Assembly (NCBI RefSeq): GCF_003568845.1
Contig: NZ_CP030126.1
Coordinates: 1,763,001-1,827,000, forward strand
Reading direction: 5' to 3'
Source: Indioceanicola profundi
GTDB lineage: Bacteria > Pseudomonadota > Alphaproteobacteria > Azospirillales > Azospirillaceae
Length of the DNA: 64,000 bases
The position numbers and the translations under genes were made by a program. Each line of letters begins with the position of its first letter. The stretch's first letter is position 1. Of the stretch, positions 55,512 to 61,309 are shown in pieces. The notes below the pieces were generated by a model. It did not search any database and had not been told where the DNA came from. It worked only from the letters and a program-made list of their open reading frames with translations.

Positions 55512-56186
55512 ATGCGCACCTGCTTCCGTACACGTACCCTAGCGGCCGCCCTGGCCGGATTGTTGGCCCTGGGACCTGCCGCAACAGCCTTCGCCGATCC
55601 GCCGGACTGGGCGCCCGCCCATGGACGGCGCGACAAGCATGAAGACAAGCACCGCCACAAGGACAAGCATCGGCATGACGATGACCGCCGATGGTCCCAC
55701 CGGTACGATACCCGGTATGACAGCGGCGTCCGCGATATCCCCCGCTTCTATGACCTGCCGGTCGGGATCGATGCCGGCAGCTGCGACCGCGGCATTGTCG
55801 GTGCGAATCTCGGGACCCTGCTGGGCGCCGTGGCCGGCGGGCTGGGCGGGTCCCAGTTCGGCAAGGGCGATGGCAAGGTAGCGGCCACCATCGGCGGCGT
55901 GCTTCTGGGCGCGGTGCTGGGCAATGCCATCGGCCGGCAGATGGAGCCGGCGGATCAGGGCTGTCTCGTCCAGGCGCTGGAACGTGCGCCCACCGGCCAG
56001 CCCATCCTGTGGGATAATCCCGATGCCGGCACGCGGTACGAGGTGGTGCCCACCCGGACATGGCAACAGGCCGGCGGCACCTACTGCCGCGAATATACCA
56101 GCCGCGTGATGATTGGCGGTCGGGCGGAGGCGGCCACCGGCACCGCCTGTCGCCAGCCGGACGGCGCATGGCAGATCATGAACTAG
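55512..56186 (+). CDS. Glycine-zipper surface protein (17 kDa antigen-like)
   Basis: An exported protein of 224 residues with signal peptide about 1-28 (TAFA-DPP). A His/Lys/Asp-rich segment (KHEDKHRHKDKHRHDDD, about 43-59) may bind metal. A glycine zipper region (GTLLGAVAGGLGGSQFG and IGGVLLGAVLGNAIGRQM, about 95-145) and a C-terminal conserved domain (RAPTGQPILWDNPDAG, YCREYTSRVMIGG) match RT0821/Lpp0805-type proteins of the outer membrane. No lipobox is present. It begins a rightward run of small exported proteins. Confidence 0.85.
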   Translation: MRTCFRTRTLAAALAGLLALGPAATAFADPPDWAPAHGRRDKHEDKHRHKDKHRHDDDRRWSHRYDTRYDSGVRDIPRFYDLPVGIDAGSCDRGIVGANLGTLLGAVAGGLGGSQFGKGDGKVAATIGGVLLGAVLGNAIGRQMEPADQGCLVQALERAPTGQPILWDNPDAGTRYEVVPTRTWQQAGGTYCREYTSRVMIGGRAEAATGTACRQPDGAWQIMN

Positions 56187-56302
56187 GCCGGTCGCCCCTC
56201 CCACCTCTTGACGACGGGGGCGGGAGGGACGAACTCTATTGGATCGAGGGGGCGATCCGCCTGTTGGACGGGTTTCGCCCCACCGGAACGGAGAGTGTCC
56301 CG

Positions 56303-56830
56303 ATGTCCGTGCGTGCCAATCTGACCCGTCTCGCCCTGACCGGCGCCATTGCCGGCCTGCTGTCCGCCGCGCCCGCCGTGGCGGAACCGGCGTCCATCGT
56401 ACCCGAGGGAACCAAGGTCAACGGCTTCTCCCAGCTTCAGCGCACGCCCCTGCCGGGCGAACGCGTTGCGCCAAGCCAGTTCCCCGGCTACGCGCCCGGC
56501 GGGCCGGAGCTTGGCTTCGGCGGAGCTGGAATCGAGCAGGAGGAGAGCGATCCCGATGTCGGCGTGACGCTTCATGCCGTCCCCGGCAACGGCCCGGTCT
56601 ATGCCCAGCGCGACACGCGGATGAGCCGCCTGATGGGCGACGGCGTGATGATCTACGAAAACCCGGTGCGTAGCGGCTATCTCGGCTACAACCCGCGCAC
56701 GGGTGGCTATGATCGTTGGCATGGCAGCCTGTCCTACAACCACTCCTACCTGCGCCACCTCTATGACGGCAATCTGGCCGGCACCCCGTCGGTCAGCGCG
56801 CCGACGGACTTCTGGAGCGGCCAGCGCTGA
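56303..56830 (+). CDS. Exported hypothetical protein
   Basis: A protein of 175 residues with signal peptide about 1-27 (AAPAVA-EPA). The mature part is Gly/Pro/Tyr-rich, with VNGFSQLQRTPLPGERV near 40 and a C-terminal GYLGYNPRTGGYDRWHGS. I do not recognise a family. ACGGAGAGTG precedes ATG 56303. Its stop overlaps the next ATG (TGATG). The phrase LQRTPLPGE is echoed as LERAPTPGE in the next protein, which suggests the two genes are related or share a partner. Confidence 0.75.
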   Translation: MSVRANLTRLALTGAIAGLLSAAPAVAEPASIVPEGTKVNGFSQLQRTPLPGERVAPSQFPGYAPGGPELGFGGAGIEQEESDPDVGVTLHAVPGNGPVYAQRDTRMSRLMGDGVMIYENPVRSGYLGYNPRTGGYDRWHGSLSYNHSYLRHLYDGNLAGTPSVSAPTDFWSGQR

Positions 56831-57336
56831 TGCGCGCGCTGCTGCCGCTGGCCTTCGCCTTCCTGTTGCCGGCCGCCACGGTCATGGCACAGGTCGCACC
56901 GGCGGAACCGGGCGGCTTTCGCAAGCTGGAGCGCGCACCCACGCCCGGTGAGGTGCGCGCCGCCCAGATCGAGGAGCAGCGCCGGCTGGAGTTGGTCCGC
57001 GAATGCAAGGCCCGCCGGTCCCGCGGGGAGAAGGTCGGTATCGCACTCGGCACCGTGGCCGGCATCGCTGCCGGACTGCTCGTGGCCGAACCGGGCAACG
57101 ATAGCGAGCAGGTGATCGCCAGTACGCTTGGCGCCGGGGTCGGAGCTACGGCCGGCGCGCTGATCGGCGAAGGCGTCGATCCCCGCGACCCGTGCAACTT
57201 CAACCCGCCCGATCAGACAGGGGCGGAACGTCAGCCGGCAATTCCCACCGACCACCTCCACCGCCCTCCCCCCGCCCGTACCATCGGCGCAGGACCAGAG
57301 CCGTTGCCGGGGCGCGGTTCCAGCCAAGGAAACTGA
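56830..57336 (+). CDS. Exported glycine-zipper-like hypothetical protein
   Basis: A protein of 168 residues, signal peptide about 1-20 (ATVMA-QVA). After FRKLERAPTPGEV comes a charged helix (AAQIEEQRRLELVRECKARRS), then a glycine zipper-like double helix (GIALGTVAGIAAGLLVA and ASTLGAGVGATAGALIGEG). The C-terminal 45 residues are Pro-rich. It is coupled to the preceding gene by a one-base overlap. No function can be given. Confidence 0.72.
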   Translation: MRALLPLAFAFLLPAATVMAQVAPAEPGGFRKLERAPTPGEVRAAQIEEQRRLELVRECKARRSRGEKVGIALGTVAGIAAGLLVAEPGNDSEQVIASTLGAGVGATAGALIGEGVDPRDPCNFNPPDQTGAERQPAIPTDHLHRPPPARTIGAGPEPLPGRGSSQGN

Positions 57337-57340
57337 TCGC

Positions 57341-57589
57341 ATGCGGGTGAAAGACTTTTCCGCCAGAAGTCTTGATAGTTCCCGCACAGCATTTCCGATG
57401 ACATTGGGTCCGACGCTTGCCATGGCCGGGCTGCTCATGATCTGGCCGTTGGGCTTCATCGCCGCCATGATCCAATATGATCCGCTGCCGGCTCCGCCGC
57501 TTCCCTCGCTTCAGACGGTGATCCTGGGCGTTCTCTCCATCGCGACGGGAATCGGGCTCATTGCCGGTATGACCAAGCGGCGGCCATAG
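57341..57589 (+). CDS. Small membrane protein, first half of an amber-split gene
   Basis: A protein of 82 residues with two helices (LAMAGLLMIWPLGFIAAMI, about 26-44, and TVILGVLSIATGIGLIAGM, about 59-77), ending at TAG 57587 just after a KRRP turn. The same frame continues without another stop for 100 codons and encodes two more helices, so the stop probably interrupts a single four-helix protein. CCAAGGAAACTGATCGC precedes ATG 57341; it lies 4 bp after the previous gene. If translated as is, the product is a two-helix peptide. Confidence 0.6.
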   Translation: MRVKDFSARSLDSSRTAFPMTLGPTLAMAGLLMIWPLGFIAAMIQYDPLPAPPLPSLQTVILGVLSIATGIGLIAGMTKRRP

Positions 57590-57889
57590 GGACTGTTCCT
57601 GGCGATCATTGTCGCGGCAGGCGCGGGCGGCGCCGTGGTCGCAGGCGGATTACTGCTCTCCCCCAGGGTGGAAGACCGATCCTTCCTTCTGCTTGGCAGT
57701 CTTCCGATATTCGCCATGCTGGCGGCCTATCTGATCGCGGTCGTCCGCCCGAAATCGCTGGCTTGGTACGGCATCGCTCTTCCGGCCACGTCCCCGCGCG
57801 ACCGAGGACCGCTCAGCCGCGCGGATCTCGTACTGTACACCCCCGCCACCCCCTTGCCCGCTGCCCCGCCCGCGCACGCTGACGCCTGA
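57590..57889 (+). pseudogene. Second half of the amber-split membrane protein
   Basis: Directly after the TAG the same frame reads GLFLAIIVAAGAGGAVVAGG (helix 3) and SFLLLGSLPIFAMLAAYLI (helix 4), then a Pro-rich cytoplasmic tail ending APPAHADA before TGA 57887. It has no ATG; GTG 57635 is in frame but lies within helix 3 and has no ribosome-binding site. A single TGG-to-TAG change would explain the split. The original protein would be about 182 residues. Confidence 0.65.
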
Positions 57890-57896
57890 TCGGCCC

Positions 57897-58361
57897 TCAG
57901 CGTCGGCTCCGGAAGAACTCCCGCAGCAGTTCCCCCGCCCTCTGCTCCTGGATGCCGCCATAAGATTGAGGCGCGTGGTGGCAGGTGGGCTGGCTGAAGA
58001 AGCGGGGTCCGTGATCCACGGCGCCGCCCTTGGGATCATAGGCAGCGAAATAGACCCGGCGAATTCTGGCGAAACTGATGGCCGCCGCGCACATCGCACA
58101 GGGTTCCAAGGTCACATGCAGGTCGAGGCCGGGCAGGCGCGGACTGCCCAGGCGGCGGCAGGCTTCCCGGATCGCCAGCACCTCCGCATGCGCGGTCGGG
58201 TCGGCCAGCTCCTCCGTCCGGTTCCCGGCCCTGGCCAGCACCGTACGGCTGACCGGATCGACAATGACGGCGCCGACGGGCACCTCTCCCCGCGTGGCGG
58301 CGGCCCGGGCCTCTGCTAGGGCAAGCTCCATCGGCGTGGTGTTGGTCGCAGGATCAGACAT
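57897..58361 (-). CDS. tadA: tRNA adenosine(34) deaminase
   Basis: A zinc deaminase of 154 residues converting A34 to inosine in tRNA-Arg(ACG). The active site is TAHAEVLAIREA (His-Ala-Glu), and PCAMCAAAI provides the two Cys ligands; RIRRVYFAAYDPKGG and the C-terminal helix ELLREFFRSRR are family features. ATG 58361 is chosen; the frame is open 56 codons farther across the dodecin promoter region. It is divergent from dodecin. Confidence 0.93.
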   Translation of the reverse strand: MSDPATNTTPMELALAEARAAATRGEVPVGAVIVDPVSRTVLARAGNRTEELADPTAHAEVLAIREACRRLGSPRLPGLDLHVTLEPCAMCAAAISFARIRRVYFAAYDPKGGAVDHGPRFFSQPTCHHAPQSYGGIQEQRAGELLREFFRSRR

Positions 58362-58521
58362 GGACGGAGGCTTGCCCTGATGGTCAGCTTCCGTCAAGCC
58401 GGCGCGATGGGAGAGGCTCCCGCCCGCTTGCGCCGATTGCCACCGCTTCCGCGCGCCTTTGCGCGGGACGTCCCCGTGCGAGACTGCAAAAGCGCAGAGA
58501 ACCGCACGCAAGAGGCGAGCC

Positions 58522-58836
58522 ATGTACATGCCGCTCCGCGACCCGGCAGCGACCGCCGATTCCGAATTGGCGGATGAGGCGGGCGGATGCGCCTACAGGA
58601 CGATCGAGGTCGTCGCCTGCTCCGCGACCGGTATCGAGGATGCCATCGGAGGGGCTATCGAGCGAGCCGGGCGGGCCCTGCCCCATGTGGAGTGGTTCGA
58701 GGTCACGGACCTTCGCGGCACCGTCGTCAACGGCAAGGTCGGCCGGTGGCAGGTCGGGCTGCGACTGGGCTACCGCCTGGATTCGGCGGACGGTTCCCGG
58801 AACCAAGCTTCGCCGAACCCTGTTGCCAGGGCCTGA
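58522..58836 (+). CDS. Dodecin family flavin-binding protein
   Basis: A small protein of 104 residues; the dodecin fold occupies about 31-92 (YRTIEVVACSATGIEDAIGG, RALPHVEWFEVTDLRG, VGRWQVGLRLGYRL). Dodecins assemble as 12-mers that store or buffer flavin; Trp53 in VEWFEV fits the flavin-stacking position. N-terminal (30) and C-terminal (12) extensions exceed the usual 65-75 residues. GAGGCGAGCC precedes ATG 58522; a second ATG at 58528 is also possible. Confidence 0.88.
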   Translation: MYMPLRDPAATADSELADEAGGCAYRTIEVVACSATGIEDAIGGAIERAGRALPHVEWFEVTDLRGTVVNGKVGRWQVGLRLGYRLDSADGSRNQASPNPVARA

Positions 58837-58890
58837 TCCGTCGGCTGGGTTTTCCCGGCCGTCAAGACCACGGCACCCAGGGAGACTCCC

Positions 58891-59394
58891 ATGGCCCAGA
58901 CGGCCAAAGACGGCAAGTTCGACAAGCTCATCGAAATGATCGACGGGATCGATGTGGCCATGATGACCAGCATCGATCAGGGCCATCTCCGGTCCCGCCC
59001 GATGTGGACGCTCAAGGACCCTGATTTCGCGGGCACCCTCTACTTCTTCACCCGCCTGTCTTCCCATAAGATCGAGGAGCTGCAGAGCAATCCGCAGGTG
59101 GGCCTGTCCTACGGCAATCCCAGCAAGCAGGACTATGTCTCCGTCTCCGGCCATGCCCGGCTTTCGCGCGATCCCGAGCGGATGCGCCGGCTCTGGGCGG
59201 AGCCGATGCGGACCTGGTTCCCCGAAGGCTTGGACGATCCCGACCTAGGTTTGCTGGCCGTGGAGATCGAGATGGCGGAGTACTGGGACAGCCCCTCCTC
59301 CGCGATGGTGCACCTGTACGGTTATGCCAAGGCCGCGATAACCGGCCAGTCGCCGAAGCCCGGTGACCATGGCAAGCTGAACATGCCGCACTGA
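58891..59394 (+). CDS. Pyridoxamine 5'-phosphate oxidase-like protein (general stress protein 26 type)
   Basis: A flavin-binding split-barrel protein of 167 residues. VAMMTSIDQGHLRSRPMWT, TLYFFTRLSSHKIEEL and VSVSGHARLSRDPERMRRLW match the GSP26/pyridoxamine oxidase-related group. Family members bind FMN or FAD; a role in stress tolerance is reported for some. It lies 54 bp after dodecin on the same strand, so two flavin-linked genes may share a transcript. A strong terminator follows. Confidence 0.87.
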   Translation: MAQTAKDGKFDKLIEMIDGIDVAMMTSIDQGHLRSRPMWTLKDPDFAGTLYFFTRLSSHKIEELQSNPQVGLSYGNPSKQDYVSVSGHARLSRDPERMRRLWAEPMRTWFPEGLDDPDLGLLAVEIEMAEYWDSPSSAMVHLYGYAKAAITGQSPKPGDHGKLNMPH

Positions 59395-59445
59395 CCGCCC
59401 GGACCCCGGTTCGGTCCGAACCTCGCATCCATGCGCAAAACGACG

Positions 59446-59480: not shown

Positions 59481-59515
59481 GTGCGGTGGCCCGCACCTGC
59501 GTAAAGTCCCGCGCC

Positions 59516-61309
59516 ATGTCGAACGATCCAAAGACGCCGCCCGCCGCCTCCTCCACGGACGCGCCGGGTTCAGAGATTCCTGAAACCGAACAGGCTGGTG
59601 AGCGCGTTTCAAAGCGCCTCGCCCGCGCGGGCCTGTGCTCGCGCCGGGATGCCGAGCGCTGGATCGCGGAGGGCCGCGTGGCCGTGAACGGCAAGGTGCT
59701 GGACACCCCCGCCGTGACGGTCACCTCGGCCGACCGCGTCACCGTGGACGGGCAGGTCGTGCCCGATCCTGAGCCGACGCGCGTCTTCCGCTACTACAAG
59801 CCGGCCGGGCTGGTCACCAGTGCGCGCGACGAGAAGGGTCGCGACACGGTGTTCGATGCCCTGCCCCGTGAAATGCCCCGCGTCGTCTCCGTCGGGCGGC
59901 TGGACCTGAATTCCGAAGGTCTGCTGCTGCTCACCAATGACGGGGAACTGGCGCGGCATCTGGAACTACCCTCCACCGGTTGGCTGCGCCGCTACCGCGT
60001 TCGGGTCCACGGAAATCCGGACGAGGCGGCGCTGGCCCGGCTGAAGGACGGCGTGTTCGTCGACGGGATCGAGTACGGCCCGATCGAGGCGGAGCTGGAC
60101 CGCGTCCAGGGCAGCAATGCCTGGCTGACCGTCGGACTGCGCGAAGGCAAGAACCGCGAAGTCCGCAAGGTGATGGAGCATCTGGGTCTACCCGTGAGCC
60201 GGCTGATCCGCATCGCCTATGGTCCCTTCCAACTCGGCAAGCTGGAGGAAGGGGACGTGGAGGAGGTGCCGCGCCGCATCCTGCGCGACCAGCTTCCGGC
60301 CTTCTTCCCGAAGGAGGAGCGCCGGGCAAGAAGTGCGGAGCCGGTGCGCCTGCGCTTCGACCAGTTGCCCAAGGCTGCCGCGGCCTCCGCTCCCAGCTCC
60401 GCCACCAAGGGCGGCAGGCTTGAGGGACGGCGGCCCAATGCCCGTATGGCGCGGGACAGTGTCGAGCGCGTGCTGAACGATCCCAATCGCCCGCAACGCC
60501 CCGAGCGTCCGATCCGCAGCAACGACTGGCGGGACGAGAAGCCCCGCGGCCATTTCCCCGACGACGAGCAGACGGCTCCCCCGTCCCGTCGGCAGGCGGA
60601 GGAGGAAGGCGGCATCCGCATCCGTTCCACCCGGGGCGGACGTACGCGCCCTGGGTTTGAAACCCAGCGCGCGGTTGCAGCCCGCGTCGCCAGCCGCTCC
60701 GTCCCCGCTACGGGCGACGAACGGCCCGCCCGCCCGCCGAGGTCGGAGAGCAGCCGTACGCCCCACGACGCCCGCAAGTCGGGTCCGGGGGAGCGCCCTG
60801 CCCGCGGCGGCCGCTCGGAGGGTTTCGGTAGCGAGCGCCAGGAACGGGCTCCCCGCGGTCGGAACTTCGACGAGGGCCGTCCGGCACGGGCACCCCGTTC
60901 CGGCGGATTTGGCGAAGATCGTCCGGCACGGGCACCCCGCTCCGGTGGATTTGGCGAAGATCGTCCAGCACGGGGACCCCGCGGCGGCGGGTACGGCGAG
61001 GACCGTCCGGCACGCCCGGCCCGTGGCGGCGGATACGGTGAGGATCGTCCGGCGCGGGCTCCGCGCGGCAGGGATGCCGGTCCTGGCGCTGGCGGGGACC
61101 GTCCCGGTCGGCCGCCGCGCGGTGAGGCCTTCGGCGGCAAGCCGGGTCCGCGCGGGCGTGGTCCTGCCGGCGGTAACGACCGCCCGTCCGGCCCCGGCCG
61201 GGGCGGTCCCGGCGGACCCAGGGGAGCTGGGCGCGGCGGTCCCGGCGGCAAGGGTCCTGGCGGGGGCGCGAAGCCGGGCGGGGGCCGCGGTGCGGATCGT
61301 CGGCGGTAA
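59516..61309 (+). CDS. rluB: 23S rRNA pseudouridine synthase (RluB-like) with long repetitive tail
   Basis: An RsuA/RluB-family synthase; the whole protein has 597 residues. An S4 RNA-binding domain (about 30-75, RVSKRLARAGLCSRRDAERW) precedes the catalytic domain with Asp130 in GRLDLNSEGLLLLTNDGELA and ends near 275. The remaining about 320 residues are Arg/Gly/Pro-rich and disordered, including tandem 14-residue units DRPARAPRSGGFGE. Such tails are common in alphaproteobacterial RluB and probably bind RNA. ATG 59516 begins MSNDPKTPP. The stop overlaps rsmD by 20 nt. Confidence 0.9.
   Translation: MSNDPKTPPAASSTDAPGSEIPETEQAGERVSKRLARAGLCSRRDAERWIAEGRVAVNGKVLDTPAVTVTSADRVTVDGQVVPDPEPTRVFRYYKPAGLVTSARDEKGRDTVFDALPREMPRVVSVGRLDLNSEGLLLLTNDGELARHLELPSTGWLRRYRVRVHGNPDEAALARLKDGVFVDGIEYGPIEAELDRVQGSNAWLTVGLREGKNREVRKVMEHLGLPVSRLIRIAYGPFQLGKLEEGDVEEVPRRILRDQLPAFFPKEERRARSAEPVRLRFDQLPKAAAASAPSSATKGGRLEGRRPNARMARDSVERVLNDPNRPQRPERPIRSNDWRDEKPRGHFPDDEQTAPPSRRQAEEEGGIRIRSTRGGRTRPGFETQRAVAARVASRSVPATGDERPARPPRSESSRTPHDARKSGPGERPARGGRSEGFGSERQERAPRGRNFDEGRPARAPRSGGFGEDRPARAPRSGGFGEDRPARGPRGGGYGEDRPARPARGGGYGEDRPARAPRGRDAGPGAGGDRPGRPPRGEAFGGKPGPRGRGPAGGNDRPSGPGRGGPGGPRGAGRGGPGGKGPGGGAKPGGGRGADRRR
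60875..61069 (+). repeat. Tandem 42-bp repeats in rluB
   Basis: Four full units (60875-60916, 60917-60958, 60959-61000, 61001-61042) and a partial fifth encode 14-residue repeats of the form D/G-RPAR-APRSGGFGE. Units 1 and 2 are almost identical in DNA; later units diverge to GGGYGE. The frame is kept throughout. Confidence 0.85.

Follow-up and report, generated by a model that had tools for sequence, protein, structure and literature searches.

A frame for four predicted membrane helices with a single in-frame TAG in Indioceanicola profundi

Orphan, or taxonomically restricted, small membrane proteins are a recognised category. The frame described here (57341-57889, plus strand), which lies in a 64-kb window that comprises the whole stretch of DNA analysed, resembles them in being short, in being predicted to be helical and in having no family match above cut-off, and differs from them in that it is broken by a stop codon and has a weak codon bias. 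The break itself is reminiscent of bacterial pseudogenes that arise by nonsense substitution, since these also have one in-frame stop in an otherwise open frame and no restart codon at the break. However, such pseudogenes are normally proven by an intact relative, and none was found for 57341-57889. A third likeness is to bacterial genes that contain in-frame stops and are maintained by purifying selection (Belinky et al. 2021, PMC7918605), where the downstream frame is open as well. That paper argues that read-through of in-frame stops is frequent in bacteria, and the case for its genes rests on dN/dS among relatives, whereas no relatives were found for this frame.

The frame and its immediate surroundings contain the following features:

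56830..57336, plus strand, preceding gene, coding for a glycine-zipper protein (Pfam Gly-zipper_Omp, E=1.2e-4, 22.3 bits, below the 25-bit cut-off)
57341..57589, plus strand, first half of the frame: 82 codons with an ATG start and two predicted membrane helices, ending in TAG
57587..57589, plus strand, the in-frame TAG
57590..57889, plus strand, second half in the same frame: 99 open codons and a stop, coding for two predicted membrane helices and a tail rich in proline
57897..58373, minus strand, convergent gene for a cytidine/tRNA-adenosine deaminase-like protein (Pfam MafB19-deam, E=6.7e-26; dCMP_cyt_deam_1, E=3.3e-25)
58522-58833, plus strand, dodecin gene (Pfam Dodecin, E=2.4e-20)
58891-59391, plus strand, gene for a pyridoxamine-5'-phosphate-oxidase-like protein (Pyrid_ox_like, E=1e-45)

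Translation of 57341-57889 on the plus strand gives 82 residues, the TAG at 57587-57589, a further 99 residues and a stop at 57887-57889; the frame is open but for the one TAG, which comes long before its end. When a hydrophobic segment is defined as a Kyte-Doolittle 19-residue mean of at least 1.6, such segments are found at residues 26-44 and 59-77 before the TAG and at residues 87-105 and 117-135 after it. Translation and hydropathy therefore bear out the first-pass annotation, which had described two helices before the TAG and two after it in the identical frame. It was also right that no second start makes sense, as the earliest in-frame ATG, GTG or TTG past the TAG is a GTG at 57635 and would begin inside the third helix. 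The ATG of the first half lies 4 bases 3' of the stop of the preceding gene (57334-57336) and is preceded by a possible ribosome-binding site, AAGGAA at 57326-57331, that was read by eye. At the other side, seven bases separate the end of the frame (57889) from the end of the convergent deaminase gene. The G+C content is 60.2% in the first half versus 68.7% in the second half. A scan of the same sequence found one terminator-like site, at 57670-57686, where 1.1 were expected from shuffles, and no promoter-like site, and an Rfam search of 56800-58600 up to E=1 gave no match.

Outside the helices, the five stretches of the chain carry 4, 0, 3, 2 and 5 lysines plus arginines, a pattern that fits a predicted N-in/C-in four-helix topology running through the TAG. 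A single-sequence structure model of low confidence (pLDDT 55.4, pTM 0.29) places helices at residues 22-46, 57-78, 82-106 and 110-135. The signs of coding on the two sides of the TAG are mixed: present in hydropathy and charge pattern, weak in codon usage, which is described below.

The reading that we prefer, and to which we give about an even chance, is that a lineage-specific gene for a four-helix inner-membrane protein has been interrupted by one nonsense substitution. Specifically, the two halves would once have formed a single orphan gene, coding for a small inner-membrane protein of four helices, that lay directly behind the glycine-zipper gene and was probably co-transcribed with it. 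One nonsense substitution would then have created the TAG inside the frame. Translation would stop after the second helix, at the sequence KRRP, so that at most an 82-residue helical hairpin would be made, the second half would be left untranslated and the full protein would be lost. The first-pass annotation had likewise explained the locus by a single TGG-to-TAG change. A single frame with one interruption does agree with the coordinates, with the hydropathy and with the charge pattern; the TGG origin falls outside this outcome. Several sense codons are one substitution away from TAG, and tryptophan as the lost residue is without support from any result because no relative was found for comparison.

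One wrong base in the assembly would suffice to produce the same picture, and the remainder of the frame is open, as would be expected if the true codon were a sense codon and an intact four-helix protein were made. We consider such a sequencing or assembly error quite improbable; the assembly consists of 4 contigs and is 98.86% complete, which speaks against poor quality overall and is uninformative on a single base. We also regard it as unlikely that the genuine, full-length product is the two-helix protein of 82 residues, with the hydrophobic codons past the TAG being an old extension that is no longer translated. The closely placed start and its possible ribosome-binding site speak for such a product, as does the positively charged tail, KRRP, with which the first half ends and which would be a plausible natural cytoplasmic end for a two-helix protein.

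How often comparable frames arise by chance was assessed with several controls. Among 262 genes that were also used to train codon scores, 257 have their next in-frame stop inside the sequence stretch examined, and in 86 of these 257 the frame stays open for 99 codons or more past the stop. Openness alone therefore means nothing. In only 4 of the 257 genes do the first 99 codons past the stop contain two hydrophobic segments. Among stop-free 99-codon stretches in wrong frames of genes, two segments were present in none of 419 forward stretches and in 3 of 1058 reverse ones, and order-1 random sequence with the composition of the region (20000 drawn) yielded two segments in 5 of 3545 stop-free stretches. 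Finally, we scanned for stops that have two or more segments in the preceding 110 codons and two or more in the following 110 of the same frame. There was one case in the 64-kb window, 57341-57889 itself, and one further case in 520 kb more of the genome. That other case, which has an in-frame ATG 18 bases past its stop, looks like two adjacent genes rather than one interrupted gene.

These controls bear on the explanation that there is no gene here at all, and that a chance pair of frames occupies some 560 bases of intergenic sequence between convergent genes. The equally long open extensions behind 86 of the 257 control genes are in its favor. So is the size of the gap that would be left, which falls between the 75th (337) and 90th (719) percentiles of the convergent gaps in this genome (n=71) and is long but not extreme; its being long also counts for the interrupted gene. 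Nevertheless, we hold chance frames to be a rather unlikely explanation, since stop-free stretches with two segments seldom turn up in any of the controls, whether random, wrong-frame or post-stop, and four segments in one frame with one stop and coherent charges are rarer still. The observation is right and is not trivial.

Codon usage gives a different picture. Codon scores were trained on the 262 genes and compared with coding pieces and wrong frames of equal length. The full codon score of the first half is -0.054, lower than the 5th percentile (-0.038) of coding pieces of 82 codons, and that of the second half is 0.030, with a 5th percentile of -0.018 for 99-codon coding pieces. By comparison, the median of coding pieces is about 0.32, and the 95th percentiles of wrong frames are 0.036 for 82 codons and 0.028 for 99 codons, the latter being near the value of the second half. 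The plus-strand frame is nonetheless the best of six by this score in both halves. When only synonymous usage is considered, the first half ranks at the 2.6th percentile of coding pieces of 82 codons and lower than every one of the 45 two-helix pieces; among wrong frames it reaches the 64th percentile. For the second half, the corresponding ranks are the 6.6th percentile of coding pieces of 99 codons, the 5.1th percentile of 59 two-helix pieces and the 80th percentile of wrong frames. In both halves a minus-strand frame slightly outscores the plus-strand frame on synonymous usage. The codon signal is therefore weak in both halves, which counts against an interrupted four-helix gene and favors chance frames. 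A weak signal would be expected of a foreign, fast-evolving or decaying gene, and likewise of a chance frame. That the signal is worse in the first half than in the supposedly untranslated half also argues against the two-helix protein as the complete product.

Searches for relatives returned little beyond the genome itself. When each half was searched separately in 59 genomes, it matched its own genome only (0/58 others), and for the first half this is a further point against a complete two-helix product. At E<=0.001 the read-through product matched none of the other 81 genomes of the family. With the threshold relaxed to E<=0.05 it matched 4 family genomes besides its own (14.9-16.9 bits), and at E<=0.01 it gave partial matches in 12 of 384 other class genomes (15.9-20.6 bits), with at most 8 candidates scored per genome among the matches listed. 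We rejected these weak matches as relatives, judging scores of 14.9-20.6 bits to be the background of helical queries. Note that the searched set holds one genome only of this genus, that the class set consists of 385 genomes drawn from a larger group, and that the order set is the same 82 genomes as the family set. No intact homologue was seen in the 82 family and 385 class genomes, and a scan of a species-level contig collection, which is sensitive to close relatives only, also found none; in a separate contig scan with a neighbouring gene, the relatives of that gene include Aerophototrophica, Niveispirillum and Nitrospirillum. Plasmids and phages gave no convincing relative of the frame, and PHROGs and PADLOC gave no match. 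A Pfam COX1 match (E=0.013-0.019) and NCBIfam matches such as midcut_by_XrtH (E=0.026) were discarded as far below their cut-offs. As far as can be seen from these sets, the frame appears to be specific to this lineage; the lack of convincing relatives is also what chance frames would give.

The surrounding genes have a much wider distribution. The deaminase is matched in 81 of 82 family genomes, its own included, and a dodecin match at E<=1 is present in 18 of 30 deaminase loci, again including this one, with at least 14 below 1e-15. The preceding glycine-zipper gene has relatives at E<=1e-5 in 9 of 81 other family genomes. It is the last of three small plus-strand genes at 55512-57336, which code for a glycine-zipper protein of the 17-kDa-antigen type, a protein that belongs to no Pfam family and is common to some family genomes, and a second glycine-zipper protein. 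The content behind the last gene of this run differs among the genera looked at. Farther downstream, at 59486-61309 on the plus strand, is a long frame with a long terminal Arg/Gly/Pro-rich repeat tail, the start of which resembles, we presume, an rRNA pseudouridine synthase.

We used these neighbours to look for counterparts of the frame in other genomes. The closest arrangement is locus L054 (genome G027), where deaminase, dodecin, pyridoxamine-oxidase-like, glycine-zipper and 17-kDa-type genes are found together, as they are here. Between its deaminase and glycine-zipper genes, L054 carries two genes on the strand of the deaminase. One is an SdpI/DUF1648 gene (SdpI E=3.6e-16), which was rejected as a counterpart of the frame because it is on the opposite strand and its best matches in 56800-59400 of our window have E=1.8; the other gene at the matching place we take to be ArsR-like. 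In the 1500 bases 3' of the deaminase in 20 neighbourhoods (from 81 genomes with the gene), there was no credible convergent membrane gene. The one convergent frame to show two or more hydrophobic segments there, at L071, was discarded as it is antisense to a 270-residue frame, which is presumably cold-shock-like, and its alignment score against the window frame is 40 compared with 37.6 +/- 5.7 for shuffles. That these neighbourhoods gave only this one candidate is again in line with chance frames. Downstream of the preceding gene's 9 relatives, none of the listed same-strand frames of at least 80 codons has a hydrophobic segment; this listing reaches only about 215 bases behind the match at L110 and leaves out frames at L111 that end before base 1500.

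We also considered whether the TAG is read through, programmed or by leakage, so that some full-length protein is made beside the hairpin. The second half does keep one open frame, and frequent bacterial read-through of in-frame stops has been proposed (PMC7918605). However, TAG is an ordinary stop in this genome, where it ends 54 of 262 genes, a point that also speaks for the nonsense break. A tRNA search gave 56 places, and ARAGORN named an anticodon for 55 of them and none for a 59-base partial match. None of the 55 named anticodons is CTA, the anticodon of a suppressor tRNA. The input to ARAGORN was 27 of 30 listed tRNA loci; the remaining three are neighbouring copies contained within those 27. 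Nested RNA folding of three stretches that span or follow the TAG was no better than that of shuffles (z of 0.83, -0.75 and 0.65), by a method that is blind to pseudoknots. With no sign of a suppressor tRNA or of TAG reassignment in these data, read-through was rightly ranked low in the first-pass annotation, and we consider it very unlikely. We give hardly any credence to a further variant, in which the TAG would be a working switch in a lineage-specific gene that yields mostly the two-helix hairpin and, by rare read-through, a four-helix form.

The interrupted frame matters little beyond annotation, and a broken gene is ordinary unless more strains show the stop to be conserved. An automatic pipeline would annotate a protein of 82 residues and might overlook that the next 99 codons resemble its other half. 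If genomes of the same species have an open frame, then the locus would be an example of the recent loss of an orphan gene. If instead the stop is conserved and the second half is constrained, then it would become a candidate for read-through.
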